Shown here: positions 21,494 to 63,900 of the stretch, in pieces
How the letters are laid out: each line of letters starts with the position of its first letter
Position numbering within the stretch: position 1 is the stretch's first letter
Assembly (NCBI GenBank): GCA_016647705.1
Contig: CM028336.1
Location: 8,821,380 to 8,885,379, forward strand
DNA length: 64,000 nt
Direction: 5' to 3'
Source of the DNA: Eucommia ulmoides
Taxonomy: Eukaryota; Streptophyta; Magnoliopsida; Garryales; Eucommiaceae
Made by a program: the position numbers and the translations under genes
Notes under the pieces: model-generated
What the model was told of the DNA's origin: nothing
The model's database searches: none
The model's input: the letters and a program-made list of their open reading frames with translations, nothing else

Positions 21494-23208
21494 TTTTGAT
21501 AACAATATTTTTTTCTTGTGGGACTTGAAAATCTAAGAATTTTTACAAGAAGGGCAAATTACATTTTCGGTCCCCTATTTTTAGCAAGTGTTCTATTCAG
21601 TCATCCAACTTTAAAACTGAACAATGGAATTTAATTATTTCAAGTTCAATTTTTTCCACCACAGAGGAGGAAAATGAAAAAACATATAATCCATTGAATT
21701 TATCAAGGGTGTAAAAGGTACCAATTTAATATTTTACTTTGAGCACCCAAATACATAAAGGTCGATCCTACCTTGAGTATGGGTGGGAAAAATCCGTCAA
21801 GTGATTTGTATATGACATCATATGATCTTTTCGAACATTCTAAATTCAGGTATTACAGGCTGACTGTAAGAATAGAGATCAGTCTAGGTTTTTGAAAATG
21901 AAATGTCTACATCAACGAAATGACCAAAAAAGGCACGAGTTGTCATGTAAAAATCCAATGATTGATTTCCCAGCTTTTTTTCATTTTTTTTTTTTTGACA
22001 AAAAAAAGGCCAAATAAACAAAGTTATGGGGGTTAATTGTAAAACTACTAGCAATAAAATGGGACAATCACCCACGGGTCCTCATTAGAGGGTAAAACTA
22101 GAAAACAAACCTTTTTTAAAGCGGGTTATCAAATAGGTCTTTGTAATTATTCGGTCAAATTTGTCTCTGCAACTACTTGATATATATTTTCCTAAAAAAT
22201 AAGAATTCAAAATCATCTTATTAAAATCAAAATGATTATTGTTTTACACAATAAAGATCTAATTATATATTCAGATTCGTTTGAATAAGATCTTCAAAAT
22301 GATATCATATGTGCTATTTATTTATTACTTTTCACATTCTGGTACTTTCAAATTTTTTAATTTTCACAGTTACATTCAACATGCTACTTCAGAGTCTTCG
22401 TAGTTTTTCAAAACGTGTTGAATTCAACATGCATTTTTTCATGATTTAATTATATATTCAGATTCGTCTAAATAAAATTTTCAAAATGATATCACGTTTA
22501 TCATTTTTTTTTTATCAAAATTTCATATTCGTATTACATTAACATAATACTTTCAGAATTTTCAATTTTTCAATTTTGTGTTGAATTCAACATGATACTT
22601 CAAATGCATATTGCTTTGAAGCCAATGGTATCACGTTCACCATTTTTTCATCAAATTATTATATTTAGTGTTACATTCAATATCCTACTTCCGAACATTT
22701 ATATTTTTTCACGTTGTGTTGAATTCAAAATAATATTTTTCTCATGTTCTATTTTTATTTTTAGATTCTTTTGAATAAAATCTTTAAAATAATATCACGT
22801 TCATCATATTTTCATCAAAATTTCACATTCGTGTTACATTCAACATCAATTTCACATTCATATTATATTCAACACAGAATTCATCGTCGTCTTGAATTCA
22901 ACACGATGATAAATCATATAGCAAAAAATATACAAATAGATATAGTTTTAAAGCCAACGATTTTAGAATCATAATCAAGTCAAGCAAATTATATATTAAA
23001 AAAAAATCATTACTATTTTAAGAATATAAATGTGATTTACTTTTAATTTGATAATTGTTCCTAATCCCATAAATAAATTCCATAAATGTAGGTCAATTGA
23101 CCCAATTTTGTATTAATGTTGAGTTTTGTAATTTGTTTTTCTCTCTACTTTTAAAAATCTGCCCTTTTTTTCCGAAACTAATTTTTTTTTTTAAATTAAC
23201 TGAATATA

Positions 23209-24510: not shown

Positions 24511-26240
24511 ATAAAAAAAAATGTCAAAATATTTGCGTGAAAAATAGGGTAAACAAAATCAACTGTTTAAGTCAATGCCTACCTAATTAAAAGATATTGC
24601 GTGTTCATTGATCCCATAACTATTATTATATTTTGTGTTTACTGGAGAAAAATCTGTGTACATTGAATCCCATGCAAAATCTAACAAAATAAAATAAAAT
24701 GATAATGATAAAGGTACCATTTAGTAACACTTTTTTTAATATTTTCTCGCTATTTCGTGCAATCTAATAAAAATGCCTTCGCTAGCAAAATACGAAGGTA
24801 GGGCGAGGTATTTTTTTTCATCTAATTAAAAAAAAAAAAAAAAGTTAAAAGTAATGTCCGTTTTACACTTAAAAAATAATTTAAAAATAAAAAAAATAAA
24901 AAATATCAAATTAAAAACTTTATTGAAAAGCAAACGTAGTTGGCTAGCAACTACTATTATTTTCCATTATATTTTTTAGAAAAGCAAAACATAGTTGCTA
25001 ATTTTTTTTTATATATTTTTTAAATACTTTTTTTGAAAAACAAAACATAGTTGCTATTATTATTTTTATTTGATTTTAATTTCGAAGAGAACAATATTTT
25101 TTTTTCATAAATTATCCTAAAGTTATAAGGTTATATCCGAGACATCTATCTCACTTCAATAAATATCTAGAATATTTTTTATCGTTTTCATAACACTGGA
25201 GACACATTTTATCATTTTTTTTTTTTTGACAAAATACCCTTGCAACATTTTTTTTTTTTTGTTTATTTTCTATTTTTTTTTATTTTCTAGCTACGCTCTA
25301 TTTTTTTTCCTTTCTATTTTTTATTTATTTTTTACTTTTGTTATGTATTTCAGATTTGATTTGTTTTATTTCAATTTTCTTTTGTTTTTATTTTTATAAA
25401 AAAAAAATTAAAAGAAAAAAAATTAGAAAACAAAAAGCATAAGATAAAACAAAAACAAAACAAAAAAGAAAAGTAAAAATTTTAAAACAAAAAAGATTTT
25501 ATTTTTGTTCTTGTTTTATTTTTTCTGTTTTTGTTTTATTGTTTATTTTTTAATTCCTATTTTTTATTTTTTCTGTTTTGATTTTTCTTTTGCATTTTGT
25601 TTCAAGAATTTTACTTTTGATTTTTTTCTGTCAGCACCATACAAAAAAATTAAAACAAAAAAAAAAAAAAAAAAAAAAAAAGAAGAAGAGAGAGAGAGAG
25701 CAGAAATAAAAAAAAATGAAATAAACAAAAAAAAAAGAAGAGTATTTTTGTTAACAAAATGTAATAGATGGTATCTTAAGTGGCCAAACTAAAAAGATAA
25801 GCGACGACTCAGGCATTATGAAAATGACAGAAGAATGTCCTTAATATTTATTGAAATTCCATAAGATTTCTCGAGTTTAAACTCCAAAATTTATTTGGAT
25901 GAACACCAGGGTCTTGTACTGTCAAGCATACCATAAATTTTTCACTCCCACATTTAAGCTTCATTTGGATAGATTTTTTTTTTTTATACAAATGGTTGGG
26001 GAAGAGGTTTTGAACATTAGAGGTCCCATTAGGGAAGCACACTAGTAACCATTAAACTACAAAAGTGTTTTGGTAATTGCAATACATATATTTCAACCAT
26101 ATTATAGTTCAATGGTTAAATCTCAAATAAACTTTTTGAAATTAACCTCTTAAAGATACTTATACTTTGTTGAAATTCATGACCATAAAGTAGACTTTGG
26201 AAGCAAGTTATTAATGAAAACAAGCTTGAAGGGCCAGTGG
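24511..26240. other. AT-rich upstream region of laccase 1
   Basis: I see no gene. Low-complexity A and T runs dominate 25,200-25,740. The words aaaagcaaaacatagttgct at 24,960-25,060 match 48,003-48,100 and 58,060-58,160, so this is still part of the duplicated block, expanded in this copy. From about 26,150 the sequence aligns closely with the promoters of laccases 2 and 3. Confidence 0.6.
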
Positions 26241-26248
26241 GTGGGGTG

Positions 26249-26370
26249 CACCAAACTACCTTTAGACTTGAATTATGTACACCATCACCTTCAATCTTAA
26301 CCAAATCTTCCAACCCCAAACAACCCTTTAAAAAAAAAACCTATACTCTTCATGATCATGTCCTATAAAA
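26249..26370 (+). promoter_or_regulatory. laccase 1 core promoter
   Basis: TATAAAA lies at 26,364-26,370, 85 bp before the start codon. CACCAAACTACC lies at 26,249-26,260, 115 bp before the TATA box. It resembles the AC-type sites bound by R2R3-MYB factors of phenylpropanoid genes. Both words and their spacing are kept in the other two laccase promoters. Confidence 0.65.
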
Positions 26371-26454
26371 AGAAGATCCCACACTTGTACTTTCTCACAA
26401 CTCCCCCCCAAAAAAAAGGGAAGAAGAAAAGGCTTACCAAGCAAAAAGATCAAG

Positions 26455-29373
26455 ATGAAGGCCTCCTTTTTTGGCTTCTTGTTTCTATTGGCTTCTGCTT
26501 TGTCCTTGGCAAATGCAAAGACTCATTACCATGATTTTGTGGTATGCCTCTCTCTTTTCCCCTCTTGTTTTTCACATTTCTTTACTCAGGTCTTAACTTT
26601 TAAGGAATGGTGGTCATAGGTTCAAGCAACGCCGGTGACAAGGCTGTGCAATACGCGCAACACCATTACGGTGAACGGGCAGTACCCTGGACCGACGCTC
26701 GAAGTGAACAACGGTGACACCCTCGTCGTTAACGTTGTCAACAAAGCTCAATATAACGTCACAATTCATTGGTAATTTTTGCATGCATGCATGCAATTCA
26801 AATTGCATTATCTACCACCTAAACTAACGTAATTCGAAAGGGTTAAACCTCTTACCCCCATGTTTTTTTTATACTGTTTCATTTTACCCCCAGCTATCAA
26901 CCTGAACCGACAGGTAACCAAACCGAACAGTTTGATTTTGAAATCAATTAACTGGTTTTGGTTAGCGTTTTGGTTTTCGAATTAAAAACTGATGAGGTTT
27001 TTATTTTTGTTTTGGGATAATAACTGTGAAACCGAAACACATAATATGTATTTTTATTATATATATATATATATATATATATAATTGGATTAATTTGTTT
27101 ATATATAAAAAATAACGATTTCGCAGTTTTGGTTTTACATAAAATTAAACAGTTCGGTTTTAAAACCATTTTAAAAACCGGTAGTTTTGGTTTTCATTTT
27201 CGTTTTGATTTTGATTTGGGTTTGGGTTGGTATAAACCTAACGGTTTTGGTTTCTAGTAAAATGGCCCAAAACCGAACTGTTGCAATTCCTACCCATCTA
27301 CTCTGAAATCCTATATTTTACCCCTTTCTACGTGTATTAGAGTGTAAAACTAAAGTTTTTTGTTTAAAGTAGTGGAATACAAAATTAGCAATTAATAGAT
27401 GAATTGGACCCACGTTTTGGGTTTGTGGGATGATGTGTTTCTCCAGGCATGGGGTGAGGCAGATGAGAACAGCATGGGCAGACGGACCGGAATTCATAAC
27501 CCAGTGTCCAATTAGACCTGGAGGAAGCTACACGTACCGGTTCACCATTCAGGGACAAGAAGGCACACTCTGGTGGCACGCCCACAGCTCGTGGCTAAGA
27601 GCCACCGTCTATGGAGCTCTCATTATTCACCCCAAAGAAGGAGACTCCTATCCCTTCACCAAGCCAAAGCGCGAAACACCCATTCTCCTCGGTAATGAAA
27701 CAAACCCTTCTTTTTTCTATTTGTTTGGCGCACAATTTGAAATTTCACAAGGTAGCGTTTGGACCAATATATTGTAATTCAATTCAAGTGGTAAGGTCCG
27801 TTTGAGTTAAAACAGTTGAGCGACTTTTACAAGGTCAAGGATTGAAGCCTGCAAAAAAACACTTGTTGAAAAGGTCAACCACGCACTCTGAACAAAATTA
27901 GTTGACGTGTGAATATATGGACACTCATGGATATATAAATAAAAGAACAGCGTACGACTAATAATAGATGATAATAATTCAGGTGAATGGTGGAATGCTA
28001 ACCCGATAGACGTAGTGAGGGAAGCCACAAGAACAGGGGCGACCCCCAACGTCTCCGATGCATACACCATCAATGGCCAACCAGGGGATCTCTACAACTG
28101 TTCGAGTAAAGGTTTGCTTTCTTCCACAGAACCCAATCAAACATTCAAACTAAACTCTCTATTCGAATGAACGTTGTTTTAAACGATTAAATCCGTTGAA
28201 ATGCAGATACCGTTATAGTTCCGGTGGATTCGGGCGAGACGAATCTCATACGCGTCATTAACGCTGCACTCAACCAACAGCTATTCTTCACCATAGCCAA
28301 TCACAAGCTCACCGTAGTAGGAGCCGACGCCTCCTATGTTAAACCCTTCACCACCTCGGTCCTCATGCTCGGGCCTGGCCAAACCACCGACGTCCTAATC
28401 AACGCCAATCAGCCGCCGGGTCGATATTACATGGCCGCCCGTGCCTACGCCAGTGCCCAAGGTGCACCGTTCGACAATACCACCACCACTGCCATATTCG
28501 AATACAAGGCCGCCTCTTGCGCCGGCAATTGCACCTCGAAAAAGCCCGTTTTCCCATCATTGCCGGCGTTCAACGATACCACCACCGCCACCACCTTCAC
28601 CTCTAGCTTTAGAAGCCCAAGGAAAGTCGAAGTCCCGACCCAAATTGACGAGAGCCTCTTCATCACCGTCGGTCTCGGGCTCCAAAATTGCCCTCCGGGG
28701 GCCAGCTCCCAAAACTGTCAGGGCCCGAACGGGACCCGCTTCACTGCCAGCATGAACAACGCTTCATTCATCCTCCCGCCCAACGTCTCCGTCCTCCAGG
28801 CGCACCAACAGGGCATTCCCGGAGTTTTCACCACCGATTTTCCGGCGGCTCCTCCAGTGAAATTCGACTACACCGGCAACGTCAGCCGGTCACTCTGGCA
28901 ACCCATCAGGGGAACCAAGGTTTACAAACTGAATTATGGGGCGAGGGTGCAAATAGTGTTGCAGGGAACAAAGATCTTCACTGCTGAAAACCACCCGATT
29001 CATCTTCACGGATATGATTTCTACATTCTTGCAGAGGGATTCGGTAACTTCAATGCCCAAACCGATACTTCTAAATTCAACCTCGTTGATCCACCTCTTC
29101 GGAACACAGCAAGTGTACCTGTAGGAGGGTGGTCCGTCATTAGATTTGTCGCTGATAATCCAGGTAAGACAAAATAATCATGGACATTCTTAAAAATATA
29201 ATTACTTTTTTAATTCACCTTTTTTTTTGGGGAACAAAACAGGAGTTTGGTTCATGCATTGTCACTTGGATGTGCATATTAATTGGGGATTAGCCATGGC
29301 TTTCCTTGTGGAAAATGGAGCTGGAGAACTGGAGTCACTAGAATCTCCTCCAGAGGATCTTCCTGTGTGTTAA
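26455..29373 (+). CDS. laccase 1 (LAC14/LAC15-like multicopper oxidase)
   Basis: A secreted laccase that oxidises phenolics (monolignols or flavonoids) in the cell wall by one-electron steps and reduces O2 to water. Six exons: 26,455-26,541, 26,620-26,771, 27,447-27,691, 27,983-28,111, 28,207-29,163 and 29,243-29,373. All are GT-AG and give 566 residues with no interruption. The signal peptide is residues 1-21 (hydrophobic [14 protein letters not shown], cut after ANA). Copper motifs are HWHG at 79-82, WWHAHSSW at 122-129, HPIHLH at 467-472 and HCHLDVH at 529-535. The type 1 Cys is 530 and the axial position is Leu540. Many N-glycosylation sites are present. The protein is closest in texture to LAC14/LAC15, the group that includes Arabidopsis TT10. 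The exact substrate is not readable from sequence. Introns 2 and 3 are longer than in the sister genes because of insertions. Neighbours are two near-identical tandem copies. Confidence 0.95.
26820..27310. repeat. insertion in intron 2 of laccase 1
   Basis: Intron 2 is 675 bp here but 199 and 211 bp in laccases 2 and 3. The extra DNA is rich in gttttggtttt and aaccgaac words and holds an (AT)n run at 27,057-27,083. No clear terminal repeats were found, so the element type is unknown. Confidence 0.6.
27772..27960 (+). repeat. SINE-like unit, copy A, in intron 3 of laccase 1
   Basis: Absent from intron 3 of laccases 2 and 3 (109 and 105 bp, versus 291 bp here). It starts caagtggtaaggtccgtttg, has ggattgaagcc about 50 bp on as a possible B box, and ends tggatatataaataaaag. 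Similar to 24,343-24,510. It inserted after the laccase block duplicated. Confidence 0.55.
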
Positions 29374-30560
29374 TATCATCAACAAGAATCATCAAATGTC
29401 AGCGTTCAACGTGTTTTTGATACTAATATATAAGTTTATTGTTGTTTTACCCTGTATTTTGGGTCAATTTCTTGTTTTTTTCCAGCGTTCTCTTTGAGAT
29501 GTAAACTCATATACTTTCATTATATAGTCTCATAATGAGAGTTTTTTTCCTTCATTTTATTGTTTCACTAAACCTAAAACGTTTTTTCTTTAATAACGAT
29601 TAAAGATTTTTTCTCTTGTTGTTAAGGAAAAACATCGCAATTAAGTTTAGTAGAATGATAAAATAATAAAAATATCTCTAGGAGAAAATCATGTACTGAA
29701 CACAATTTATTTATTTATTTTTGTACAAAAAATGATTAATACCATTTTTAATTTTGTTTGACTTAAAATAAATGAAAGTTGTTTATTGATATTGAGTAAA
29801 TCTCAAGCATTTAATTGCATTCATTGTTGGAATTTTTCTTCTTCTTTTTTTCAATATGAGTAAATTTATGTAATTATATATGAAAATATTGAGATTAGAA
29901 AAATAAAAAAGAGTTTAAGACTTTAATTAACACACATAAGCAACAAGCTATGAGTTCGTGATGATAAGCAACCACTATTAATTAGTCTCCCATGCATTGG
30001 ATTTTTTAGGCTATCACTCAATTTTAGCCAACATATTAAAATGGTCCAAGGGACAAAACCCATACCATCTTGAATCTATTGATTTATTTATTTTTAACAA
30101 AAAATAAACCCATTTTAACAAAATACACACGTTGAGAGAGACCAAGACCATCCTACATCTATTGTTAACTGATGATATTGAATATGTCGAGCCCATTCTC
30201 AGGATCACCAAAGGAATATACATTCGAACTATATTTTCAAAAAATATTTTTTATACAATACTCTTGTTGAATATTAAAGCTGATTTTTTTGTTTCATTGA
30301 TTACATACTAAAGTTAATTTTTTTAAAATTAGGGTTATTTTTTTACTTTAGCAAGAATACAAGGGACAGTAATTAGAAAAAATGAACATGAATATCTCAA
30401 GTCATCCACACAATGATTCAAATGTCGGCCAAAAAATGACTTCTTCCATATCTTGGTGTGGATTATCCAGTCAGATATTTGTAGGGGCGCACCGATAGGT
30501 CCCTTTTCACAATTCCATGTATCAATCAAATCCCAAATCTTTTTTTTGCACTGTTAAGTC
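29374..30560. other. 3' flank of laccase 1
   Basis: There is no gene. The flank matches the 3' flank of laccase 2 up to about 30,125 (51,900 in copy 2), ending near acacacgttg. The rest, 30,130-30,560, has no partner in the window and I see nothing recognisable in it. Confidence 0.6.
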
Positions 30561-31135
30561 CTTTGTGCTTTTTTGCGACCATAATGCCCCTGCACACAAT
30601 CGGATCAGTTGTGTTTGTGTTTCCTTATTTGGCGTTGCATTTAATATTCCATGACTTGCATTCCAAAAAAAGTGGGCGTGGACTATTGAGCATCTACAAA
30701 AGAAAAACTTGGATGTTTCGTTCTTATTTTGGTGTTGAAAAATTAAACTTTTTACATCATATTAAACAGAAAAAAAAAATCATAATTAATTTGATATGTT
30801 GTTCGTGATTTTTGGCCGACTAAATTTGTAGTCGTGTGGATGTTACATTCAACATTCGAAACGGTATGCGGAATGTAATAGCCAAAGCTATGTATTTTTG
30901 GATGCACGTTGTCATGTACTCGCGAAGCACCGAATCATTCCCCTATGCCGCCTCTTTCAAATCGCCCGTACTTTCTATGAGTGGTTGTGACCGTTTAGAT
31001 AATGGCGCGTTTTCCATTTGCATAGCCTAAACCTTCCATTATTATCCAAAAACAGTAAAAACCCTCTGTATTTCCATATCTTCTCCACCGATTTCCATAT
31101 CGAAACACTCTAAAAACCTTCAATCTCCCAAAACA

Positions 31136-34100
31136 ATGGTGACTACTCGCCGTAGGATGAGGAGCATCAACCCCAATATGGCTGCAACCGCAGTAACTCT
31201 CACAGACTCGGGTAGGTTTCATCGATTTCTCAAATTTTTTGGCTTTTGGTGTGTTCTTATTACAATAAACACTATATTACATGTTTATTTGTTGTTTGCA
31301 TCCTAATAAAGTGAACATGCAAGTGAAAGCGACACTAGAACAGTCGCTCTTTTTTCGATCCTCTTGGATTCTATTTTTGTCATGTTTACGGTTGTTTTGT
31401 ACTCGCCCTCTCGATTCGTGTTTTGTGTTTGTATTTCGTTCTGCTTTTGTGTTGAATGTAACATGGGTTAAATGTAACAAATCTCTATTTGGTGGAAAAA
31501 TTTAAAGAACTTGTGTTGAATGTGACATTTTTAACCCATTTTGTGCGTTAACAAAAATGTAACATATTGAATGTTACATAATGACATATGTTATTTGTGC
31601 AAAAAGAAAAGCGATGTGTCGAACCCTAGAACAGGCCCACTCTGTTTTTTATTGTTGGGTTTTGTTTTGTTAAGTTAACGGTTGTTTTTGTACTCCCCCC
31701 CTCTGATTCTTCTTATGTGGTTGTGTTTCATTCTGCATTTGAGTTGAATGTAACATATGTTGAATATTACAATCTCTATTTGGTGTGATATTCTCTAAAT
31801 TTTGTGTGTTGAATGTAGTATTTGTGTAAAATATTCTGTCCAATAGTGTGTTGAATGTAACATTCATTATCGTCCAATTGTGTTGTTTTCAGATGATGTC
31901 GTTCCAGTAAGATTCACGCAACCCGCTACATCGCCTAACGGGTCTCAAAATTCCATCGTGCCATCATGTAGCTCTTCTGATTCGAACGCCATTGCTTCAT
32001 CACCGTCTAGACTTCCAGAATCGCGCCCGTTGTGTACCCCGGTTGCTAAATACCAGGTAAACCTATCACAATTTTGCTTGCTTGTTTCCAGTATTCGTCT
32101 GCGTGATTTACACCTTGAACTTCTTAAACGGACACCCTTTTGGAACACGATGAGTACTCTTTTCCATGAAAGTTTAGTGGATTTAGCTTTTAACAAGATT
32201 GATAGCTTGTGTGCAAATATCATACTTACATACCAACCGCATCGAAAAGCTTTCAAAATTGGCTCGAAGCTAGTAATGTTCACTCCCGATGATGTGAAAT
32301 TGATTTTTGGCTTTATATCCAGTAAGAAACAGATACCAGCTCAGTATGCGAAGAAGAGTGATTGCTCATTTTCGTGCCAACGAGGGGTAAAGACCAATCG
32401 GATGAGTGTAGTTCAAATTAGGAACATGCTGATTAGAATTCTGGGGAGTAATGTTGAAGACAATGTTAAGGACGTCGTGCGGTTGCTCTATTTGCATCTT
32501 ATCGCAACGTGTTTTTTTTACAAATAAGGGCCAATCTTGTAGTATTTCTGATATAAGACTTGTTGAGGATTTGAGTGCCCTTTCATCCTACAATTGGACT
32601 GATCATATGCATTCCAATCTAATGTCTTCAATTGAAGCTGGATACCAAACACCGTCATCTGTCATTGGATGCGTCATCGCGTTACAGGTTATATTGCTTT
32701 TTTCATTTGTTTAAAAATAAAAATTTACTTGATAAGTACTGTCTGTAACTTTTGCTCTTTTTGATTTAAACTTTTTATATTTAGTTTTGGTTATGTGAGC
32801 ACACTAAAATTCTTCTTGTTACTCCCGGGCGAGAGACGTTTATACCACGATGGGGGAAGTGGAATATGATGGAGTTGATGACTATTGCATCAGGGCTGCG
32901 ACTGTCTAAACTTGATGGGAATCAGGTATGTTACAGTGTATGAAACAAATATTTTTCTTATGTGTTGAATGTAACATCCACACTATCTATTGATCAAACG
33001 GCGTGGTTTTCAGGTCGATGAGGGTCATTTAGTTGAGACAATAGCTGAAATACAAGTCGGTGTCGTATTATCAGTCCATGGTGATACTGAGGAGTCAAGG
33101 ACCAGAAGTAAAGGCAAGACGAAAGTTCGCTCGTCAATCGAGTTTCCGTCTTTTGATTTGGGGATATCAGAGCCATTTAACAAGGATGCCACTGAGTTTG
33201 GTAGTGGTTCGCAAAATTTGAATGACCTTGTTGAGCAAAATCGTCAGTTGACAACCAAGGTTGAGGCATTAAGGGATTCATGGAGGCATCTAAGAATGAG
33301 AAAATCGACGAAGATTGCAAAACTACATGAAAATGTATGAGAGTTGAAGTGGACAATACAACAATTGCGAGGGGATCTTATGGAATCAGAGGTGCATGTA
33401 GTTACGCAGTAGATGCACCATGAAACTGAAAAAAAACATTCTTGAAGAGCAATTGGTCGAGGTTGTTGTCCATTCTGTAACGTAGTCAGTCGAGGAGAAG
33501 CATAAGCATGAAGATAATATTGTTGGTATTTCTGAATTCTATCAAATGGAACTAGCGGATAGGGATAATGTAATCATGCAGCAAGCTTAAGATTGGACGC
33601 CATGATGACTCGGTAATGGTCCAGCCACCGCGACGTGCTACGCGATTGAAGAGCCGGCCGACAACTCCCAATTCGCTCGTAAAAATGTGAAGAAACGTGT
33701 GAGAACACGAAAGACGGGGGAGAACTCTATTCATGTGTATACTGCCCCCGTTAAAAAATAGCGTCGATTGAAGAAGAAAGATGAAAATTCTGTCAGGGAT
33801 ATAGTTGTTTACACTGGTGAGCCCGTTGCATCTAATGCAGTTGTTGTTGAGCCTCATGTGTTGCCTCCCCGAGATAGTGTTGTAGCCTGTCTGTTGCTTC
33901 CCGTTGATTGGCATAAGCTTGAGTTGATCCTACGCACTGAAGGGACTTTGTAAGTGTTTATTTTCTTTTTGTTATTTTCGTTTAAGCTTCAAATTCAAGC
34001 ATCCCAATGTCTCATATTTTGAAGAAATATTTGTAGTACGTGCATATAGAGAGGTGAACTTCCGGATGCTCATTTATCAATGCGCGACATTCTTAGTATA

Positions 34101-35116
34101 TTATGGGATGATCAATTATCAAATTTTGTAAGTGCCTTTCAGCATTTTTTGGTAGCAAAAAAAAGTGTGCATGTTACATTCCACATGTATTGAATGTAAC
34201 ATATCTTGAAAGATGTTGACTGTGACTTGTGCTCCTGTGTTGAATGTAACATCATGTTTGTTGTTTGTATAGGTTATTAATTCGTATATGGAAATTATTT
34301 GGATTGAGCAGATTAGAGATGTTACTCAGCTGCCGGATCTACCTAATTCATTTTTTTTTTATAAACAGTGCGTGCTGGGTGAGTCTCAAAAACCACAAAC
34401 TATTTTCTTTTTTTCCATAATTTAAACACATAGATTGTAACGCCATAAAAATATCCAATAATGTTTATTTATTTTTTACACCTTTACTGCTACCTTGCCA
34501 GACCTAGATCCATTGGAAAGTTTCTGATTGTCTTGTAAAAATTATTAATCCAAGCATAATAGAGACGTTTTCGTCCAACGTCTGGTATGTGCATTTTCCT
34601 ATACATCATGAGGGGCCGACAAATGATTCAGGGCATTGGACGCTTTTCATGTGTGATAAGAAAAAATCAACTTGGGATCATTATAATTTTATTTATTTGC
34701 GGCAACCGGGATCATTTGACCATTATTATGGGGATGCCAAAAAAGTTGTAAGATGTTTTTCCAACACTTAATTGCAATGTCCAATTCGACAACAATCGTC
34801 CTTACATTGTTTTTTTATCCTTACATATTTCATAAGTCATCACGTTGCTTTCAACCAAGGCTAAGGAATATAAGCTGAAGCGTGTTCAGGTTTCCAATGT
34901 ATCCGAAGTGCCTAATCAGGGTGGATCAATGTAAGTGTCATTCATTGTTCATGCATGATGCCATTTCGTTAAAAAAAAGTACAACACGTAGCGTTAATTG
35001 TTCCATCACATTTGAATGTGTGCAGCGTTGGCTACGGTGTTGTTGTGGTTTACATAATGAAACAGAATTACAATGCGCAAAAAATTAATGTCGATTTGGG
35101 GCTTGATGGGTTTTAG
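31136..35116 (+). pseudogene. Ulp1 (C48) SUMO-protease-like gene of the MULE, decayed
   Basis: Multi-exon gene. Exon 1 is 31,136-31,211 (MVTTRRRMRS), then about 31,893-32,687, 32,785-32,925 and from 33,014, with further exons near 33,760-33,949, 34,037-34,130, 34,273-34,378, 34,500-34,770 and 34,860-35,116. The N-terminal part has the conserved FTPDDVKLIFGF block seen ahead of the protease in plant MULE-borne Ulp1 proteins. A helical region follows (NLNDLVEQNRQLTTKVEAL). The protease part shows GHWTLF with the catalytic His, and QGGS with the oxyanion Gln. The expected DCG reads GYG, so the catalytic Cys is lost. There is a one-base frame change at the T8 run near 32,512, and stops at 33,339 and 33,411. 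It would have been a SUMO-type peptidase. It is now dead. Confidence 0.75.
31440..31870. repeat. motif cluster in intron 1 of the Ulp1-like gene
   Basis: Six or more copies of TTGAATGTAACA or one-off versions (31,450, 31,512, 31,565, 31,743, 31,808, 31,852), all within the intron 31,212-31,892. A further exact copy lies at 30,842 upstream of the gene, one in the intron at 32,963 and two at 34,190-34,245. Confidence 0.85.
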
Positions 35117-35389
35117 ATGGAACGAGCTGCACTGGTCCATACATTCCTCAATGATCTGCCCTACTCTTGGACTGTGGACACTTGTTTATCTAGAATAACT
35201 TAATTTACCGTGTATCCCATTCTTCCATAGTGGTTGTCGTTGAAATTGAAATCTAATATTTAGCCAGCATACAGATTTTGTTTTTCCTATTGTATTGCTG
35301 ATTTTTTATTTTTATTTTTGGGTTGCGTGTTTGGATGTAACATTGGTTACCATTTTCATATTATTCCATTCTTTTACGTTATTGAAGGT

Positions 35390-35860
35390 GTCAAAAGATG
35401 AAGATACATGTGTTTTGGATGTTACATTCAACATTCTCTTTTGATGAATTTGAATGTAACATCAGTTAAAATTCTCATTCTTATATGGGATACATTTCAG
35501 CACCGTCCCCAACACAAAAAAAAGGTCGTTTTGTATTCACCCGTCAAGTGAATGTTGAATGTAACATTCAACACAGGTCGTGTTACATTCAATATTCAAA
35601 TAAAAAATGTAACATTCCACTCCGTTGGTGTTGTTTGTCTGATATTTGCTCCATCAAATGCGCAAAAATCAACGTCGATTTGGCGCGTGACCGTTTTCGT
35701 ATGGAATACATTTCATCACCAACCAACCAACCCCCCCCCCCCCACACACACACAAGCTCATGTTACATTCAACATCCAAGTGAAAATGTTGAATGTAACA
35801 TTCAACACATGCCATGTTACATTCAACATCTGAAGTGAAATATTGAGTGTATCATCAATT
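35390..35860. repeat. motif cluster downstream of the Ulp1-like gene
   Basis: At least seven copies of TGTTACATTCAACA or its complement (35,421, 35,452, 35,553, 35,582, 35,761, 35,790, 35,814), some overlapping head to head as GTTGAATGTAACATTCAAC. The open frame at 35,485-35,838 is made of these repeats and is not a gene. Confidence 0.85.
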
Positions 35861-36170
35861 AAATAGTGTAAAACATTCCACTCCATGGGTGTTGTTTATA
35901 TGATATTTGCTCCATCAAACAAAAGCATTGTTAGATGTTTTGTATTGGTAATCGTGTACATAGACAATCCATTAGCACCGGCTAAGTCGTCAAATTCACG
36001 TCCTTCGCTGATTGCTGGTGATTGAAACGTCGTGATGGAAACCCGTACGCCTATTACCTATGCACAAAGTCGACGTTTCTTTTGGGTTGGGGAGCGAAAC
36101 GTCTCATACGTTTGGGTATGAGGCGATGATCATAAATAAAACCCATTCACATTCCCCCCATTCGTCCTCC

Positions 36171-36412
36171 TTTATATATCTCAGTTGAATCTAAACTTCA
36201 AACACTGGTTCGTGAGTCTAGTTCCTTCCCAACGATTAGGGTTCTGTTTCGTGTTGCATGTTACTTCTTCGTTCATTTCTGTGCAGAAAATCAGCCTCTA
36301 AAAACCCAACGCATACATCGTAAGAGTTCCTTTCGAAATTCCCATGTTGTTAATTGGGGATATTTGTTTTCAATTAAGGAATATTTTAATGTTTTTTTTT
36401 TAATTCTAATAG
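36171..36412 (+). promoter_or_regulatory. promoter and leader intron of the small MULE gene
   Basis: TATATATC at 36,173-36,180 is followed by a leader, a donor site at 36,320 (catcGTAAGAG) and an acceptor at 36,411-36,412 directly before the ATG at 36,414. This gives a short 92-bp leader intron. Confidence 0.5.
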
Positions 36413-36413
36413 G

Positions 36414-36701
36414 ATGGTCGGCCATCAGAACACCACTGATTTTGACAAGTTGCTTGCGAAATGGGACGAGGACTCAAAAATATTGATGGATATTGCACAG
36501 GGTCTACAGGGGAAAGTGGGTGGTGCCCAGTACACGTATGCTTCAATGGCCAAGGACAACGAGGCCATGAAGCTGGAGATCTAATGACTCAATGTGCTCA
36601 TCTCTAGTCTATGAGATGAGGTGGAGATGTTGAGGAACCAGCTTGGACCTGGTTATGTTGCACCAGCCCCCAGTGAGTCGTCTGTCCACGTGGAGCAGTA
36701 A
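36414..36701 (+). pseudogene. small coiled-coil frame of the MULE (96 codons, three stops)
   Basis: The frame starts MVGHQNTTDFDKLLAKWDED and stays open for 56 codons to TAA at 36,582. It continues in the same frame past two TGA codons to a final TAA at 36,699, ending PAPSESSVHVEQ. The composition is helical with heptad-like leucines (LNVLISSL, DEVEMLRNQL). A TATA box and a leader intron precede it, so it looks like a third gene of the element. All three inner stops fit C-to-T changes of Gln/Arg codons. I know of no family for it. It could also be a stray fragment of the helical part of the Ulp1 gene. Confidence 0.5.
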
Positions 36702-36899
36702 AGTTCATGGTTTGTTGATTTTTTTTTATATCCAATGACACACACATTTTGATCTATCTCCCCCTTGTGTCTGTACATATACTAATGTCGCCGTTTGATC
36801 ATCAAAACATTATGTTTATCACGTGTTTTATAATTTGGTTGTGTGTTATTGTATAATGGTAAGCAAGTTATACATTGTTTTTTTTTTTTTTTTGGTAAA

Positions 36900-38560
36900 A
36901 AAATGATACATTCAACATTGTTTCTCCCGGTGGTAAATGTTACATTCAACATTGACTTGGGTGTGTTTTTTGTGTTGACTGTTACATTCAACATTGACTT
37001 GGATTCTGAATGTAACATGACTTGGATGTACATGAGTGTAACCCCTATGTGGTGGAATGTTTACATTTTTTAATTGATGTTACATTCAACACACCAAAAA
37101 AATGTTTTGGTCAAAAAGCAAATACAATGTGTGACCAATTCCCATGTGGTTGTAGAAGAAATGCGATCTCCCGCGTTGTCTTATTTTACCTGGCACGAGA
37201 TGCAATCCATGTTGAATATAACATGACTTGTGTACATTGTTAAATTCAACAATGACTTGGGTGTTGAATGTAACATGACATGGGTGTACCATGAATGTAA
37301 CATTCTTGGGTAGAACATTTGTATTTTTTAATTGATGTTAGATTCACACCAAGATTTATTTTTTGTCAAATCAAAATATAATGTGTAAACAATTCCACGT
37401 GTGGCTGTAAAAAATGAGACTTTACAATGGTGTTACATTCAAAAAAATATTGGGTGTTGAATGTACCATGCACGTAAAATTTTAATAAAAAATTAAAGTA
37501 TTAAAATCCCCCCTATTCGAGTGGTGCTTTGCAAGATTTCCTGTTGTGTCACGACATTTTACCGCATCTCCTCCCGCATCGTCTTCTTTTACCTCCCCAT
37601 TGGATGTAATCCCCAAATGAGTAACATGACTTTGATGTAACATGAATGTAAAACCCATGGAGTGGACCGTTTACATTTTTTAATTGATGTTACATTCAAC
37701 ACACCAAGAAAAAATGTTGGGTCAAGCAAAAACAATGTGTAGAACAGATTTATCATGTGGATGTAAAAAATCCAACTTGCCTACTGGTGTTACATTCAAC
37801 AAAAAAATCGATGTTGAATGTAACATGCACATAACAAATCTTATATAAAGCAGCATATTAACGCAGATGATTGTGGATGATAACCAACCCCCAAATGAGA
37901 AAAATGACTATTTTATTCATGTCCAATAAAAAACTGGGACATTTACCATGAATGTAACACTCGTGGAGGGAACATTTGTATTTTTTAATTGATGTTACAT
38001 TTAACACACCAAGAATTGTTTTGGTTAAATCAAAATATAATGTGCAAACAATTCCACATGTGGCTGTAAAAAATGCAACTTTGCGATAGTGTTACATTCA
38101 ACAAACTTATGGGTGTTGAATGTACCATGCACATAAAATTTTAATAAAAAATCAAAGTATTAAAATTCCCCCTAATCGAGTGGTGTTTTGCAAGATTTCC
38201 TGTTGTGTCACGACATTTTACCGCATCTCCCGCATTATGTTCTTTTACCTCCCCATTAGATGTAATCCGTGTTGAATGTAACATGGCTTGTGTTGATTGT
38301 TACATTAAACATTGATTTTTGGGTGTTCAAATGTAACTTGACTTGGATGTAACATGAATATAAAACCCGTGGAGTAGAACTTTTACATTTTTTAATTGAT
38401 GTTACATTCAACACACCAAGAAAAATGTTGGGTCAAGCAAAAACAATGTATAATTCAACAAAAATAGCGATGTTGAATGTAACATGCACATACAAATCTT
38501 ATATAAAGCAGCATATAAACGTAGATGATTGTGGATGATAACCAACCCCCAAATGAGGAA
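36900..38560. repeat. tandem repeats built from transposase 3' ends and the 14-bp motif
   Basis: Two kinds of block alternate. One (37,310-37,620 and 37,970-38,275; eroded near 37,160) holds gagtggtgctttgcaagatt and ttttacctcccca, which also occur at 38,660-38,755 in the true end of the transposase gene. The other (37,050, 37,670, 38,385) holds tttttaattgatgttacatt followed by caacacaccaaga. At least thirteen exact motif copies are embedded. The period of the larger unit is about 660 bp. Confidence 0.8.
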
Positions 38561-38731
38561 AAATGGTTGTTTTATTCATGTCCAATAAAATCTACGAGAA
38601 AAATAGATTTTATTTAGTATGAAATAAAAATATAATAAAGAATCAAAGTATTGAAATTCCCTCTATTCGAGTGGTGCTTTGCAAGATTTTTTGTTGTGTC
38701 TCGACATTTGACCACATCTCCCGCATCGTCT

Positions 38732-40953
38732 TCATTTTACCTCCCCACGAGATGCAATCCGAACTTTCCTTGGTCTTTCTGGTTGTTTCTTTGATAATGG
38801 AGGTAGAATAATTGCTTCGCTCTCGATTGATATTGGTCGTTCCATTGTTGGTATTGCGTATATACCTCTTAAATACGTCTCCCAATAAAAGCAACTCCAA
38901 AAATAATCCTCTATGTATCTGAATGTTGGAAGTCCACTCTTGTTGATAGCTACAAATGCAGGTGCACATGGGAATCCTTTTATCTGCCATTGTCGGCACG
39001 ATCACGATCATTCCTCAGTATCAACTAAGACAGAATGTGTTGAATGAACTTCGAACACTCCATTGCCTGATAAGCTCACGTTCCAGGTTCGCCCTTTATT
39101 CATCAATTCACATATTTTGTTCTCCCAGTAAGGCTTGATCTTGTCTTGTAACTTGTTTGCTTCATCCCTCCTCTCTGCCATTAAGTTCATCCACTTTATC
39201 CTTATCTTGTCAATCAATAAGATTGCAGGCAGATGTTGAAATTCGCTTATCCAGGAATTAAAACACTCATCCAGATTGGACTTCATCTCACCATACCGTT
39301 TTCCTCTGAAAAACGCGTTACTATACTTCATGGCTGACAATTCATGGATGAATCTATGTACTTTACACCCCCCTCATACAGCATTTGATCGTACAACAAC
39401 TTGTACATTTCCGGTGTGTGTGCATATGCCAATCCGTTCAATTTTTGGATCATCATCTCCTTGAATGTCGTGCTTGTGCCAGTCATCGCAACCCTCAAGT
39501 TCATTTTCAGATGATGCAAGCAATATGTGTGGTGGCACTGTGGGAACACATTCTGTACTCCTTGCAAAATCCCATTGTGTCTGTCGGAAATAAATATTAT
39601 CACTATGCCTGGCTCGACAATCTTCTTGAGTTCTGATAAAAACAAGAACCAATTATCGTCGTTTTCTGCATCAACAATGGCGAACGCAACTAGGAACATT
39701 CCTTCATGCAACACGTAGACAAACAAACAAAAATTCATACTATATATTACAAAAAAAAAATATTGAATGTAATACTGTTACATTTGACAGAAAAAAAATA
39801 ATAATAATATGATTGAATGTAACGCTGATGTGTTTGAAACATTTTTGTATACATACCTTGGTTTCCATCCTTTGCTATTGCTACTAGTAAGTTCCCCTTG
39901 TACCTTCCAATCAAAAAGGTATCGTTGAGGAACAACATGGGGCGGCAAAAACGAAATCTGTGTAGAAATTAATATCCTTTTGAAATGTTTCGTGTCCTCA
40001 TCGTATTCTAGTGCGACATGACTGCCCGGGTTTGTCTCTCTACATTTCTCAACATACCATTTTAATTGATCGTACGACAACGAGTAATCACCGAGTACGC
40101 TATTCCTGGCTTTTTCTACCCCCATCCATGCATTTCGATATGATATCTCTAGTCCATATTGTTTTCTAAAACTGTCAATGACATCTACTGGGCGAGTTTT
40201 TGGATTTTCACGCACCTCGTCAATCAGGCACGATGATATAATGTCTGAGCTCAAACGTTTGTTCTTAGTTGTCCGAAATGCAATACCACATGTGTGTTCT
40301 TTTACTAGGCTGCGAATGTAGAATATGTCGTTTTCACTCCTCACGCGCCCATGCACAAACCACGGGCAGTTTCTTTTCTCTCGCATTGCGCATACAGCCG
40401 TGACACGTATCTTGTCATTTTTTAGGTACCTAAAATTAAACCCCACCTCTACCGTATATTTCTGCAATGCCATGCGAAATTCGCTCGTCCCCCCTCTAAA
40501 TTTTTGCCCCTCGTTCTGGATTCCATCGGCCCATTTTGTTGATAGCAGCATTTTGTTGTTCGGGTTTTGTAACATATTACCATAGCTACCTATATAGTCC
40601 ATTTCAGCTTTGCTATTATCACTGCTACGATTGGTGACGGGAACTAACACAGATAAGGATGCCCCAGTTGAACCGCTTGAATCACTAACTCATTTTTCCA
40701 CACATATTTCAATAAGTTCGATCTTCATTATGCCCGCTAGGAAAAACATTTCCGCGAAGTCATTTTGGTCGTCCAACACACATTTCGGGTGTCCAGGAAG
40801 TAAATACGACAACTTGATCCTCCCACTGCTTAAATCTATTCATTTGTTCCCAATTTTTTGATGCAACCCATCAATATCACAAACATCTCTCATCCTCAGC
40901 ACTGTTGTGACATTCTCATATTTGCACAATAGTGGGATTGATGACATCATCAT
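38732..40953 (-). pseudogene. MULE transposase gene, decayed
   Basis: Two exons on the minus strand: 40,953-39,857 and 39,701-38,732, with a GT-AG intron of 155 bp. The N-terminus starts MMMSSIPLLCKYEN and continues with LSYLLPGHPKCVLD. A MULE DNA-binding domain follows (NCPWFVHG, HTCGIAFRTT). The catalytic DDE domain shows D in LFLNDTFLIGRYKG, D in IFISDRHNGI, the CLHH pair, and E in SNLDECFNSW. The SWIM zinc finger (SCRQWQIKGFPC) has lost its first Cys and its His (now Pro). The C-terminus ends ASRGEVK. Breaks: TGA at two sites before residue 120, a frame change near 39,965, another near 39,335, and two TGAs at the SWIM finger. The intron carries two near copies of the TGAATGTAA motif. Confidence 0.88.
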
Positions 40954-42100
40954 GTTCAAAACAAAAAAAAAAAAAAAAAAAACGTGTTCCCCCGTCAGTG
41001 CACAAAAAAAAGGTCAGTGGGTAACCATACAAATTATTTTATGATGTTCATGTAGAATGTAACATTATCTGGTTTTTGTTCCTGAATGACATCGCATAAG
41101 TTTTGATGCATGCGTGTGGAATGTAACATCAACGTGCACACTCCAGATCGTGTGTGGATGTTGAATGTAACATCCATGCATGTGTCGTATGTGCGTGTTA
41201 TACGTAACAATCATTGTTTATTTTTCTCAAAAAAAAAAAAAAAAAACGGTATCCAACCAAGAGGGATCGTTTACATACGTATGTTTAACACACCCTGATC
41301 CCGTGGATGTTGAATGTAACATCACCATGCGCGCTCCAGACCGTGTGCAGGTGTTGAATATAACATCCATGCATGTGTCGTATATGCATGTTGAACGTAA
41401 CAATCATTGTTTATTTTTCTCAAACAAAAAGGCCAGCAATATCCAACCAAGGGGGACGTTTCATACGCATGTTGAATGTAACATGATCGTGTGGATGTTG
41501 AATGTAACATTCATGCATGTGTCGTATGTACGTGTTTACCGTAACAATCATTGTTTATTTTTCTCAAAACCAAGGCCAACGGTATCCACCCAAAGAGAAA
41601 TCGTTCCATATGCATGTTCAACACATATTGATCTTGTGGATGTTGAATGTAACATGTATGCTGAACTGTTCATTATGTACGTGACGCTCAATGTTTAATT
41701 TTCCAGAAATAAACAAAACAAAACAAAACAAACAAAACAAAACGATTCTCATTCGTGAACGTCTTTATATACAAAATGGTTGTCTTCGAATTGAACAGCA
41801 TGAACTTCATCAAAATTTAATTTTGAAAGTGATTATGTTATGTTGGTGAACACACTCATAATTATATGCGTCGTAAAAATACCATTTTTTGCATACCTGT
41901 TGCGATTTGGTGCTGGCTCTGTGAAAATATCGACTTCTAAGTATCGATAGTGCTCGGTCGGTAACTCTTACACTTTCGCTCTCCCGATTAAGTACCGAAA
42001 TGTGTTTCGGAATGCTCAGTCTATTCTTCTCCGAACTAAATTCACTGAACTAATTTAAAATTAAAAAACCCTAATAATGGAATGTTTCGTTTTCTCAAAT
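40954..42100 (-). promoter_or_regulatory. upstream region and probable leader intron of the transposase gene
   Basis: A donor-like CAACAG|GTATGC on the minus strand at about 41,896 and the ATG at 40,953 suggest a ~0.9 kb leader intron. It includes three full units and a partial one of a 145-190 bp tandem repeat (words catgcatgtgtcgtat at 41,171, 41,362 and 41,508), each with one or two TGTTGAATGTAACA sites. The 172-codon plus-strand frame at 41,180-41,698 is produced by these repeats. Confidence 0.55.
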
Positions 42101-42411
42101 CGCATACGATGCGTTGTGAATGGAATTCTCGATCTAAAAATGAAAACGTCCATTGCGGAAATGCAGGGGGGGTAAATCGGTAAATCATTATCGGCAATTA
42201 TCGCGGCGTAGAGCTTTTGGGTGCAGAAACAAAGAGCGACGGAACTTCCCGGTTTAATTCAGAACGCCTAGGTTTGATCGGTCACTGTGAATTAAAAACA
42301 GGATGGGGTGGTCATTTTCTCATATTTATATTATATACACATATAACACTCGACACAAATAGGTAAAACAGGTACAAAAAGCAAAAAGAGCTTTAAGTTA
42401 ATGCAACTCAG

Positions 42412-47929: not shown

Positions 47930-48598
47930 TCAGTTTCTCTCTTTTTTTACCTTTAAATATGGAGGACAATTAAATCATTTTATACTTTTGTGGGGGATAA
48001 AAGTAAAACATAGTTGCTACTATTATTTTTCTTTATATTTTAAATACTTTCTTGAAAAGCAAAACAAAGTTGCAATACCTTTTTGAAAAGCAAAACATGA
48101 GTTGCTTACAATAAAAATGTCAATTAAATACTTAATTTCTCAAAAAAGGCCGTTTCAAATTTTTTCACAGAAATATATCCCAAAGTATTGAGGACTTGCC
48201 AATTATCATCCCGCCCACAAATTAAGCATGTGATTTCCACAATTAAACAGCTCGCGATTGACTAATTACTTAATTAGTGGAACATCTTTAATATTAAACC
48301 CAAAAGAATCATACTATACTGAAATTCATGTTCAAAGAGTAGACTTTGGAAGCAAGATATTAATGAAAATAAGCTTGGAGGGGCCAGTGGGTGTAGTGCA
48401 CCAAACTACCCTAGAGTTGAACTACGTACACCATCACCTTCAATCTTAACCTAATCTGCCAACCCCAAACAACCCTTTTAAAAAAAAACCTTTATTCTTC
48501 ATGATCTTGTCCTATAAAAAGAAGATCCCACACACGTACTTTCTCGCAACCCAAAAACAAAGGTAAAAGAAAAGGCTTACCAAGCAAAAAGATCAAGA
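47930..48598 (+). promoter_or_regulatory. laccase 2 upstream region and core promoter
   Basis: CACCAAACTACC at 48,399-48,410 and TATAAAA at 48,513-48,519 are 114 bp apart, as in the sister genes. The start codon is 85 bp after the TATA box. The rest of the stretch matches 58,000-58,680. Confidence 0.65.
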
Positions 48599-58469: not shown

Positions 58470-58473
58470 GGTG

Positions 58474-60978: not shown

Positions 60979-63900
60979 CATCAACAACAAGAATCATCAA
61001 ATGCCAACGTTCAACGTGTTTTTGATACTAATATATAATTTTATTGTTGTTTTTCCCTGCATTTGGGATCAATTTCTTGTTTTTTTCCAGCGTTCTTTTT
61101 GAGATGTAATCCAATCAGAGATAAGAGAAACAGGTACAAAAGGCAAAAGGAGCTTCAAGTTAATGCAACTCAGAGAGAGGCTCAAAAACATCATAATTCA
61201 TAAATAAAGTATGATCATTAACTGAGGAATGGAGACAGTTTCTGTTAACTTTGATTGGAGAGAGGAGCAGTTTATGCATTCATGTGATATTTTATCGTTT
61301 CTAGTATATCCCCAATGTTCTCCAAATCTAACTACTATTAGAAATAGAATATCTTTTAGGGCTTGTTTGGTTTTGTTTGAAAAAGTTATAAAAAAAATAG
61401 AATATCTAATAATAATGGGTTGAAAACTATAAAAGTGACGTGATTGAAATATGACGTTGAAAAAAGAGAGAATGATATTTGTTGAGTAAATTGTGTGGTT
61501 GAAAGAGTTTGTAGAAAAAATAAAAAATGCAAATACGAAAAAAAATTAAAATTATATCATCATGAAATTATAAGATTAAAAATAGGTAATGCGATAGATT
61601 GAATATTTTGAAAATTGTTTACAAAGAATAAACAATGTATTTTAGGATTTTTCACGGAGGGCATAAACGTAATTTTATAAAATATTTTTCAAAATTTTAA
61701 TTCAGATAAAATTAAAGACAAAAGAACTATTGTACTTTATTTTTTCCGACAGGATTTCTATGATAATTTTCATATACAAGGGAGTGCCAGAAGAACTTTA
61801 AAAAATATGAAGGGATGTCAATGATAATTTTCCAAACTTCTTCGTTAAATTTTTAAATAAAATAAGATATGTTTGTTAGTTTTCCAATTGGTAGAAGAAG
61901 AAGATGAAAAAGACATCTTTATTCTAGAAGTAATGAGTAACGATTTGACTTAACCGGACCGACATGGACTTTTTAAAAAATAAAGTCCGCGTTCAAAAAG
62001 TCAAAAGTTAAAAACAATTTGGTTAAAATTATCATCATAATTTGAGACCTCATCTTTCCCTTCCACCGTCATAAAATCTTCACATTAAGATTTAAGTCCC
62101 AATATAAATCCAGGCGCTGTTTGGTTACTGTCTTTATTTATTGATTTTTGTTTTGTTGTTAAAATTTTAAGATTGATATATAAAAATTTTGATACACACC
62201 CTTTTTATTTCCCAAAATTTAAAAATAATTGGAAATAATATCTAAATTCCTTAAAAAAATGAGAAATAAAAAAGTGTTGATTTATATTCACTCCCACAAA
62301 ATTATTCCCAATACCACCTCCTCGGCCACCTCCACCACTCACTGACCACCACCATCCTACTAGCCACCACCACTATACTGGCTGCCATACATTTAAAAAA
62401 AGAAATAAATATTATAGCCAAAAGTGTTTCTTGTTTCTATTCTCATAAATTAAAAAGAAACAGTTTAAGGACAATGGTCGTTACCAAACATGTTTCTATT
62501 TCCAAAATATTTCAGAACGAAAACAGAATTTTTATCCGAAAATAGAAACAAAAAACATTTTTCTATTTCCAAAATATTTCAGAACGAAAACAAAATTTTC
62601 ATCCGGAAATAGAAACAAAAAGTAGAAACACTAACCAAAAGTCACTCTCGGATCTTTCTTTCATCTTAAAATATTAAAACTTCAATCGACTTGTTTGTTT
62701 ACCTAATCCAAAAACACCAACCAATTTTTAATACCAAAAAAGAATGAAAAAGGAAACAACTTCTCGTTTTCTATGATATCTTGATAACAATACTTTTCTT
62801 GTGGGACTTGAAAATCTAAGAATTTTTCATAACAAAGGCAAATTACACTTTTTGTCCCCTATTTTTAGCAAGTTTTCTATTCAGTCATCTAACTTTAAAA
62901 CCAAACAATAGAATTTAATTATTTCAAGTTCAATTATTTTTCAGCGTAGAGGGGGACAAATTCTAAAAAATTTATGATCCATTGAATTTATCTGATGTGT
63001 AAAAAGTACCAATTTAATATTTTACTTCTGATATGCAAATACATAAGGGCAACCCAACCTTTGAGTATGGGTGGAAAAACCCGTCACGCGATTTGTACAT
63101 GACATTACATGATCTTTTCGAACATTTTAAATTCAGGCATTACAGGTTGACTATGAGGATAGAGATCAGTCTAAGTTTTTGAAGATGAAATGTCTACATC
63201 AGTGAAAAGACAAAAAAGAGCACAAGTTGAAACCAATGTATATTGATTTGAAACTAATGATATAAATTAGCAATATGACCAAATGTATATTGCTTTGAAA
63301 CCAATGATATTACATTCACCATTTTTTCATCAAATTTTCACATTTCGTGTTACATTCAACATTCTACTTCGGAACCTTCATAGTTTTTCAAATTGTGTTT
63401 AATTCAATATGATATTTTTTTCATTATCTAATTATATATTTAGATTCGTTTGAATAAGATCATCAAAATAATATCACGTTCATCATTTTTTATTCAAAAT
63501 TTCACGTATGTGTTACCTTCAACACAAATTTCACAATCGTATTACATTCAACATAAAATTTATCGTCATGTTAAATTCAGCACGATAATAAATCATATAG
63601 CAAAATATATACAAATGGATGTTGTTTTGAAACCAATGACTCTAAAATCATAAATCTCCAATCAAATCAAGAAAACAATATATCAAAAAAAAAAAAAAAT
63701 TATTGTTATTTTAAGAATATAAATGTGGTTAAATTTAATTTGATAATTGTTCCTAATCCAATAAATACGTTCTATAAATATAGGTCAATTTGCGGAAAGG
63801 CAATATCATCCCTATCTTTTTCTTTTCGAATTTGAATTTGAATTTGAATTTGAATTTGGGATTAACCAATAATAAAATTTCAAAAATAAAGATTAATTAG

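Follow-up and report, generated by a model that had tools for sequence, protein, structure and literature searches.

A 14-bp Dyad Word in the Non-Coding DNA of a Eucommia ulmoides MULE and Its Possible Role as the Target of a VANC-Like Anti-Silencing System

The Element and Its Genes

The stretch analysed here, referred to as the window, comprises 64,000 nucleotides of Eucommia ulmoides DNA (assembly GCA_016647705.1, contig CM028336.1, positions 8,821,380 to 8,885,379). It harbours a Mutator-like element (MULE) that carries a DUF1985/Ulp1-like gene, a small coiled-coil gene and a MuDR-type transposase gene. The non-coding DNA of this element is filled with copies of a 14-bp word, TGTTACATTCAACA (word A), which is absent from its exons. 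The coordinates of these features are collected in Table 1.

The ends of the element were fixed at 30484 and 42321 because a relative, L023-L025, has identical boundaries and its own separate 9-bp target-site duplication (TSD; TATTTTATT/TATTTTACT, one mismatch). The TSD of the window element is also 9 bp in length, with one mismatch between ATATTTGTA and ATATTTATA. As the termini are not inverted repeats, the element is classified as a MULE without terminal inverted repeats (non-TIR). TSD candidates based on the window only (e.g., 30713/42082) were dropped, as the relative fixed the ends elsewhere.

The transposase is recognised by Pfam matches to DBD_Tnp_Mut (E=7.4e-13) and MULE (E=8e-12), with SWIM-like and CCHC motifs visible by eye. 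The small coiled-coil gene shares 62% identity over 95 amino acids with its counterpart in L023; the window copy has no Pfam match, and the L023 copy has a weak leucine-zipper match (E=0.014).

The Ulp1-like gene lies on the strand opposite to the transposase. Nothing in its window copy exceeds the Pfam cut-offs (plant mobile domain, PMD, E=0.0052; DUF1985, E=0.046), and its own Ulp1 exons show no Pfam match to Ulp1 (Peptidase_C48). The Peptidase_C48 cut-off is passed by the relative L032, following joining of its exons by hand (E=3.6e-5, 24.1 vs. 20.7 bits). DUF1985 or PMD matches were obtained in L030, L031, L032 and L054, with E values of 0.0094 to 3.4e-6, all below the family cut-offs; the best are a DUF1985 match in L030 (E=4e-4, 20.8 bits against a cut-off of 35.1) and a PMD match of E=3.4e-6 (26.9 bits against 34.9). 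The DUF1985 exons read open in several clades, represented by these same four relatives. Judged by eye, the window copy has Tyr at the position where Ulp1 has its catalytic Cys, and L032 and L023 read DCG there. The place of the usual Asp is held by Asn in the three copies read (window, 34506-35201; L032; L030).

Searches of the PDB with the window Ulp1 exons returned weak galectin matches only. Pieces of L032 gave weak matches to sentrin-specific protease 8 (E=0.13, 0.22) and ChlaDub2, which would be in keeping with an Ulp1 identity. A PDB profile match between the DUF1985 region and Mdm38 (E=0.0035) was taken as a chance helical match.

Table 1. Features of the element, its words and related remnants in the window.
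Feature	Positions	Strand	Basis
Non-TIR MULE, 11,838 bp; termini GGGGCGCACCGATAGGTCCC (left) and GAGAAAATGACCACCCCATC (right, reverse complement)	30484..42321		
Left TSD, ATATTTGTA	30475..30483	+	
Right TSD, ATATTTATA	42322..42330	+	
DUF1985/Ulp1-like (VANC/KIU-like) gene; about nine exons by hand, stops and a frameshift	31136..35201	+	Frames, splice sites
Small coiled-coil gene; stops in window copy	36414..36704	+	
MuDR-type transposase; two coding exons by hand, frameshifted	38676..40849	-	
Word A, one site in left flank, upstream of Ulp1-like gene; nearest to left end (357 bp)	30841..30854	+	
Four words (up to one mismatch), intron 1	31450..31862	-	
One word, 32.9-kb intron	32963..32976	-	
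Three words, 34.2-kb intron	34172..34251		
Eight words, both orientations, spacer between Ulp1-like and small gene (35.2-36.4-kb gap)	35420..35828		
Nineteen words, both orientations, tandem-repeated spacer (36.7-38.7-kb gap; unit about 659 bp)	36904..38484		
Nine words, transposase leader; last one 667 bp from right end	41051..41654	-	
Gene-less remnant with words TGTTACATTCAACA and TGTTGAATTCAACA; MULE-like left terminus GGGACAATCACCC at 22061	22061..23098		
Duplicate (82%) of the 22-kb remnant, with words	63280..63790		

Distribution of Word A in the Window

The original prediction, made from the letters of the window, reported about thirty exact 12-mers over some 11 kb. The 12-mer TGTTACATTCAA is indeed present at 34 exact sites in the window, against 0.02 expected from 100 dinucleotide shuffles, and 31 of these fall within the region in question (30840..41660); the remaining three lie at 22669, 22832 and 63348. 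The 14-bp word A has 26 exact sites in the element, rising to 45 when one mismatch is allowed and to 75 with up to three. None of 400 letter-permuted control words reached more than one site at up to one mismatch. The density of word A is 1 per 455 bp in the element vs. 1 per ~56 kb genome-wide.

The claim that the word is absent from exons holds even at three mismatches, with 0/75 sites in coding sequence, as at the stricter thresholds. This was assessed over the span 30723-41700, of which 4,936/10,978 bp (45%) are coding under a gene model made by hand from frames and splice sites. The length-based probability of 0/45 sites in exons is ~2e-12, a value that is overstated because many of the copies are tandem duplicates. 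Exon absence alone is expected for any non-coding repeat. The 45 sites are distributed over the left flank, introns, gaps and transposase leader as listed in Table 1. In correction of the locations first described, the transposase intron has just two copies, each with two mismatches (39761, 39776).

Many word A copies are held by tandem repeats, with units at 36.9-38.7 kb and 41.1-41.6 kb, and the copies are therefore not independent events. The 3′ end of the transposase coding region (38625-38738) has apparently been copied twice into the word-rich spacer, at 37475-37588 and 38134-38247, within the ~659-bp unit.

Word Variants and Half-Sites in the Genome

Exact words were counted over the 947-Mb genome, each against a control consisting of the reversed word; the whole comparison rests on this one genome. 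The original prediction had proposed a genome-wide count as a check, and word A proved not to be evenly spread, with 16,912 sites vs. 15 for its control, a ratio of ~1,000. Three related words show a similar excess: word B, TGTTACATGTAACA (6,566 sites; control 2), TGTTGAATTCAACA (1,634; control 1) and the AT word, TGTTATATTCAACA (7,754; control 12). In terms of their variable bases, the four are AC/GA (word A), AC/AC, GA/GA and AT/GA, respectively. Their shared frame, TGTTNNATNNAACA, occurs at 47,364 sites vs. 2,655 for the reversed frame, with 32,866 of the 47,364 accounted for by the four words. These counts and the common frame therefore indicate that the word consists of two inverted 7-bp half-sites, TGTTNNA, in which the variable bases are mainly AC, GA or AT. 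The half-sites of word A are TGTTACA and TGTTGAA.

Scattered AT words could be products of the C-to-T decay of AC words; however, a cluster at C1:4644193-4650510, with the locus L054 inside it, contains 23 AT words, and exact copies of words A and B are both absent from it. The DUF1985 gene of L054 is a distant one (39-45% identity) with an open frame of 251 amino acids, and it is situated amid this TGTTATATTCAACA cluster.

Across all word-bearing loci, 307 distances between adjacent words show start-to-start peaks at 22, 29 and 49-51 bp. The preferred distances of 22 and 29 bp differ by 7 bp, the length of one half-site.

Many dimeric transcription factors have dyad sites. As the word is itself a dyad, it could be read by a host transcription or chromatin factor, with the element having co-opted it as promoter or enhancer sites. 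However, the presence of clade-specific words in one genome would require several host factors or a lax one, and the words fill introns and spacers at distances unlike those of a promoter. A host reader is thus very unlikely.

Word Type and DUF1985 Clade

A search of the genome with the DUF1985 exon identified at least 151 places. The elements examined number 24 (window, L023-25, L014, L029-L048 and L054); apart from the window and L014, they were retrieved in part or picked by their place in match lists, and for most of the mixed elements described below ~2.5 kb was seen. A comparison of family copies had been suggested at the outset, and all 24 elements carry word A, a half-site variant or both. 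Neither word A nor word B (up to one mismatch) was found within the DUF1985 exon in any of 23 elements (0/23), and the words of L054 lie between exons.

Exact copies of word A, with none of word B, occur in nine elements (window, L023-25, L014, L029, L030, L032, L039, L040 and L048), and likewise in L047, which adds two one-mismatch B sites. The reverse is seen in L031, L033, L034, L035, L036 and L042. Under a fixed rule, L037, L038, L041, L043, L044 and L045 are mixed; L046 has four exact A words and one exact B word, and L054 has the AT word. When these labels are placed on the DUF1985 tree, 3 changes are needed vs. 10.3 for shuffled labels under the fixed rule, and 4 vs. 12.0 when L046 and L047 are manually assigned to the mixed class. 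On this tree, the mixed elements fall outside the clade that has purely word B (five rows, 100/99). This is the pattern that stepwise replacement would leave, on a tree that is unrooted and so does not fix the direction, and with noise added by decayed copies.

Gene-Less Relatives

Among 20 word-A regions taken from contig C1, 15 are without a match to the element proteins, and L021 has one 30-amino-acid fragment. Comparison of word-A regions by blastn (matches of at least 120 bp) gave approximately three groups with little in common but the word. Termini of MULE type, beginning GGGRC... and G[AG]GAAAATTA... and accompanied by a 9-bp duplication, were recognised among gene-less elements. Of 13 word-A gene-less clusters scanned for ends, 4 were convincing, 2 weak (L010, L018) and 7 gave none; the convincing ones are L026 (its own termini being the template) and L009 (low complexity), both with a perfect TSD, and L012 and L021, each with one mismatch. 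Five word-B clusters gave three convincing cases with perfect TSDs (L049, L050, L053) and two without ends. One gene-less group, which includes the remnants at 22 and 63 kb of the window, is dominated by word A in L011 and by word B in L050 and L053.

The remnant insertion probably predates a segmental duplication, as the two 82%-alike remnants sit in duplicated segments. For the 22-kb remnant no right end was found, and for the 63-kb remnant neither end was.

The subterminal repeats of Ac/Ds and En/Spm, which are recognised by the transposase or TnpA, cluster near the element ends. By this model, the word would be a transposase-binding site acting in cis, which gene-less elements keep for transposition. 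In its favour, gene-less elements that have MULE ends retain the words, word and transposase travel together, and, as in Ac/Ds and En/Spm, a short word is found in both orientations within a DNA transposon. Unlike those subterminal repeats, the words are not concentrated near the ends: no word lies within 357 bp of the left end or 667 bp of the right end of the window element, and the introns are full of them. Elements with word A and word B also share MULE-type ends, so the requirements of the ends do not follow the word. As the ends are constant while the word differs, it is argued that the transposase is not the reader of the word, and a cis-acting transposase site is unlikely.

Divergence Inside and Around the Words

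Between the window element and L023-25, differences amount to 21/271 (7.7%) inside words, 679/2757 (24.6%) in other non-coding DNA and 1067/4903 (21.8%) in coding sequence. The corresponding values for L032 are 9/140, 275/1580 and 305/2437. L039 and L040 follow the same trend without reaching significance (p=0.09, 0.06); L014 has one aligned word (p=0.16), and no words were aligned in L029 and L030. Since the words were chosen by their match to a consensus, exact words were also compared with half of the neutral rate. This gave 0/56 (p=0.006) and 2/70 (p=0.051) for L032, and 4/126 (p=0.0003) and 8/140 (p=0.008) for L023-25. In 12 overlapping pairs of repeats within the window, words differ at 37/465 sites vs. 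361/2279 other sites, with a p-value that is too small as the pairs overlap.

These values bear on whether the word has a reader at all. A neutral repeat, spread by tandem duplication and by copying between elements, would account for the tandem units described above and for the fast turnover of the arrays. It would not explain why divergence is lower inside the words than around them, nor the diversity of their surroundings: the 51 window sites at up to one mismatch fall into 10 classes by the similarity of their 30-bp flanks, i.e., at least ten contexts. The word is also common to several non-homologous gene-less families, and one half-site has been replaced wholesale in a clade. Neutral spread is accordingly quite improbable.

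Comparison with Known Systems

Several published systems may be compared with the element. In Arabidopsis, methylation loss is caused by VANC21 and VANC6, which bind DNA containing the short motifs that crowd the non-coding regions of their respective families (PMC5735166). The motif-bearing regions of VANDAL elements are also attacked by RNA-directed DNA methylation (PMC10398659), and an unrelated element, AT9TSD1, can share a VANDAL motif (PMC5735166). KIU (KAONASHI) elements are non-TIR MULEs with an Ulp1 gene in reverse orientation to mudrA (PMC2528002). KIU VANC genes that include an Ulp1 domain reportedly act on the motifs of further KIU elements, and the capture of Ulp1 has been placed at the monocot/eudicot split (PMC13317346). 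VANC elements that carry Ulp1 and have motifs of their own have already been reported (PMC13317346, citing Sasaki et al. 2022), for which reason a related case is more likely here than an independent one.

The window element resembles VANDAL21/VANC21 (Hiun) and VANDAL6/VANC6 in being a MULE with a putative anti-silencing gene that has a DUF1985 match (below cut-off here). It also resembles them in that a short motif specific to the family, multiplied in tandem repeats, is found in introns, spacers and non-coding terminal regions and not in exons, and in the different motifs of related families. With KIU, it shares the non-TIR structure and the opposite orientation of the Ulp1-like gene and transposase; the Asn in place of the usual Asp and, in the window copy, the Tyr in place of the catalytic Cys are points of difference. 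The word itself differs. The VANC21 and VANC6 motifs are YAGTATTAY (9 bp, in one-way arrays) and AGTTGTCC/AGTTGTAC (8 bp), whereas the word described here is a 14-bp dyad present in both orientations. Half-site-swapped variants and elements with two words are further differences from those systems.

A search for the four word strings in 5.39 million open-access papers gave six that contain one or two of them; judged by title these are unrelated, and two deal with tobacco small RNAs. Motif multiplication and coevolution with VANC are already known, and it is the half-site grammar and the transitional series that look new. Sasaki et al. 2022 (EMBO J), the key study of motif diversity, reportedly found that motifs diversify rapidly and show a helical periodicity and that non-autonomous copies are important, and parts of the present findings may have been foreseen there.

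Proposed Function and Change of the Word

The word is probably the target of a VANC-like anti-silencing system in a putative VANDAL/KIU-type MULE, with a specificity that changes half-site by half-site. Most of the testable features fit a VANC-type system. The word, its distribution, its lower divergence, the link to DUF1985 clades, the half-site variants and the element ends were computed directly. The suggestion first made, that the word is the target of an element-encoded protein, is supported in part: the word is family-specific, exon-free, present in other members, less divergent than its surroundings and tracks the DUF1985/Ulp1-like clade, and these observations leave the choice of reader to inference.

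In the proposed mechanism, the DUF1985/Ulp1-like protein would bind TGTTACATTCAACA in the introns, spacers and leader, possibly as a dimer on the two inverted half-sites TGTTACA and TGTTGAA. The bound protein may then remove or block DNA methylation at the words, and the element and its same-word gene-less relatives could thereby be expressed and become mobile. From comparison of the sequences, we infer the identity of this reader, as well as its binding, its dimeric form, the anti-silencing effect and the direction of change. Tandem duplication would have produced some of the copies of the word, others having arisen in unrelated contexts. With the divergence of the protein lineages, its half-sites may have been replaced one at a time, giving a putative series in which two main groups have AC/GA, one clade has AC/AC and another element has AT/GA, with both-word elements between. 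The more specific version of this idea is that a dimeric reader recognises TGTTNNA-TNNAACA, that the family is determined by the two variable bases in each half, and that single half-sites were swapped stepwise via both-word elements. This version is tentative and, on balance, somewhat doubtful.

Several observations weigh against the VANC-like interpretation. DUF1985 falls below the Pfam cut-off in every copy tested, and the window copy of the Ulp1-like gene is broken by stops and a frameshift. The reader could be a different protein, encoded by the element or by the host. The association with clades cannot separate the DUF1985 protein from the transposase, as the two travel together and the transposase was not searched genome-wide. 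Tandem duplication accounts for part of the copy number of word A. Its orientation is single in intron 1 and in the transposase leader and mixed in the gaps, whereas VANC21 motifs run one way; one-way arrays are a feature of VANC21 that is perhaps not general to VANC systems. A helical period of 10.5 bp is not clear among the 307 word distances (R=0.11; best period 8.5), with p ~0.02 on distances that are non-independent and 0.10 with each distance counted once per source. Finally, only 9/26 of the exact words of the window were aligned with L023-25, and 10/15 in the reverse comparison; therefore, either word positions turn over or the repeats defeat alignment.

Such a system raises the question of how an element that marks itself can move to another mark, given that a single protein and dozens of sites have to change in step. 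If the two-half-site code is true, one genome preserves the path by which the reader and dozens of target sites changed together. As a single DUF1985 tree includes elements with word A, with word B and with both, and the DUF1985 exons read open in several clades, the order of events (reader or targets first) becomes testable. A code of two bases per half-site would also suggest a simple design for sequence-specific demethylation tools.

Surroundings of the Element

Three laccase-like (multicopper oxidase) genes lie in tandem in the window, at 26162-29811, 48311-51821 and 58388-61109, each with an open frame of 325 amino acids. The insertion site of the MULE lies between these tandem laccase units, specifically between the first and second copies. 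An open frame on the minus strand at 8827-9318 appears by eye to be retrotransposon polymerase-like and is unrelated to the word.

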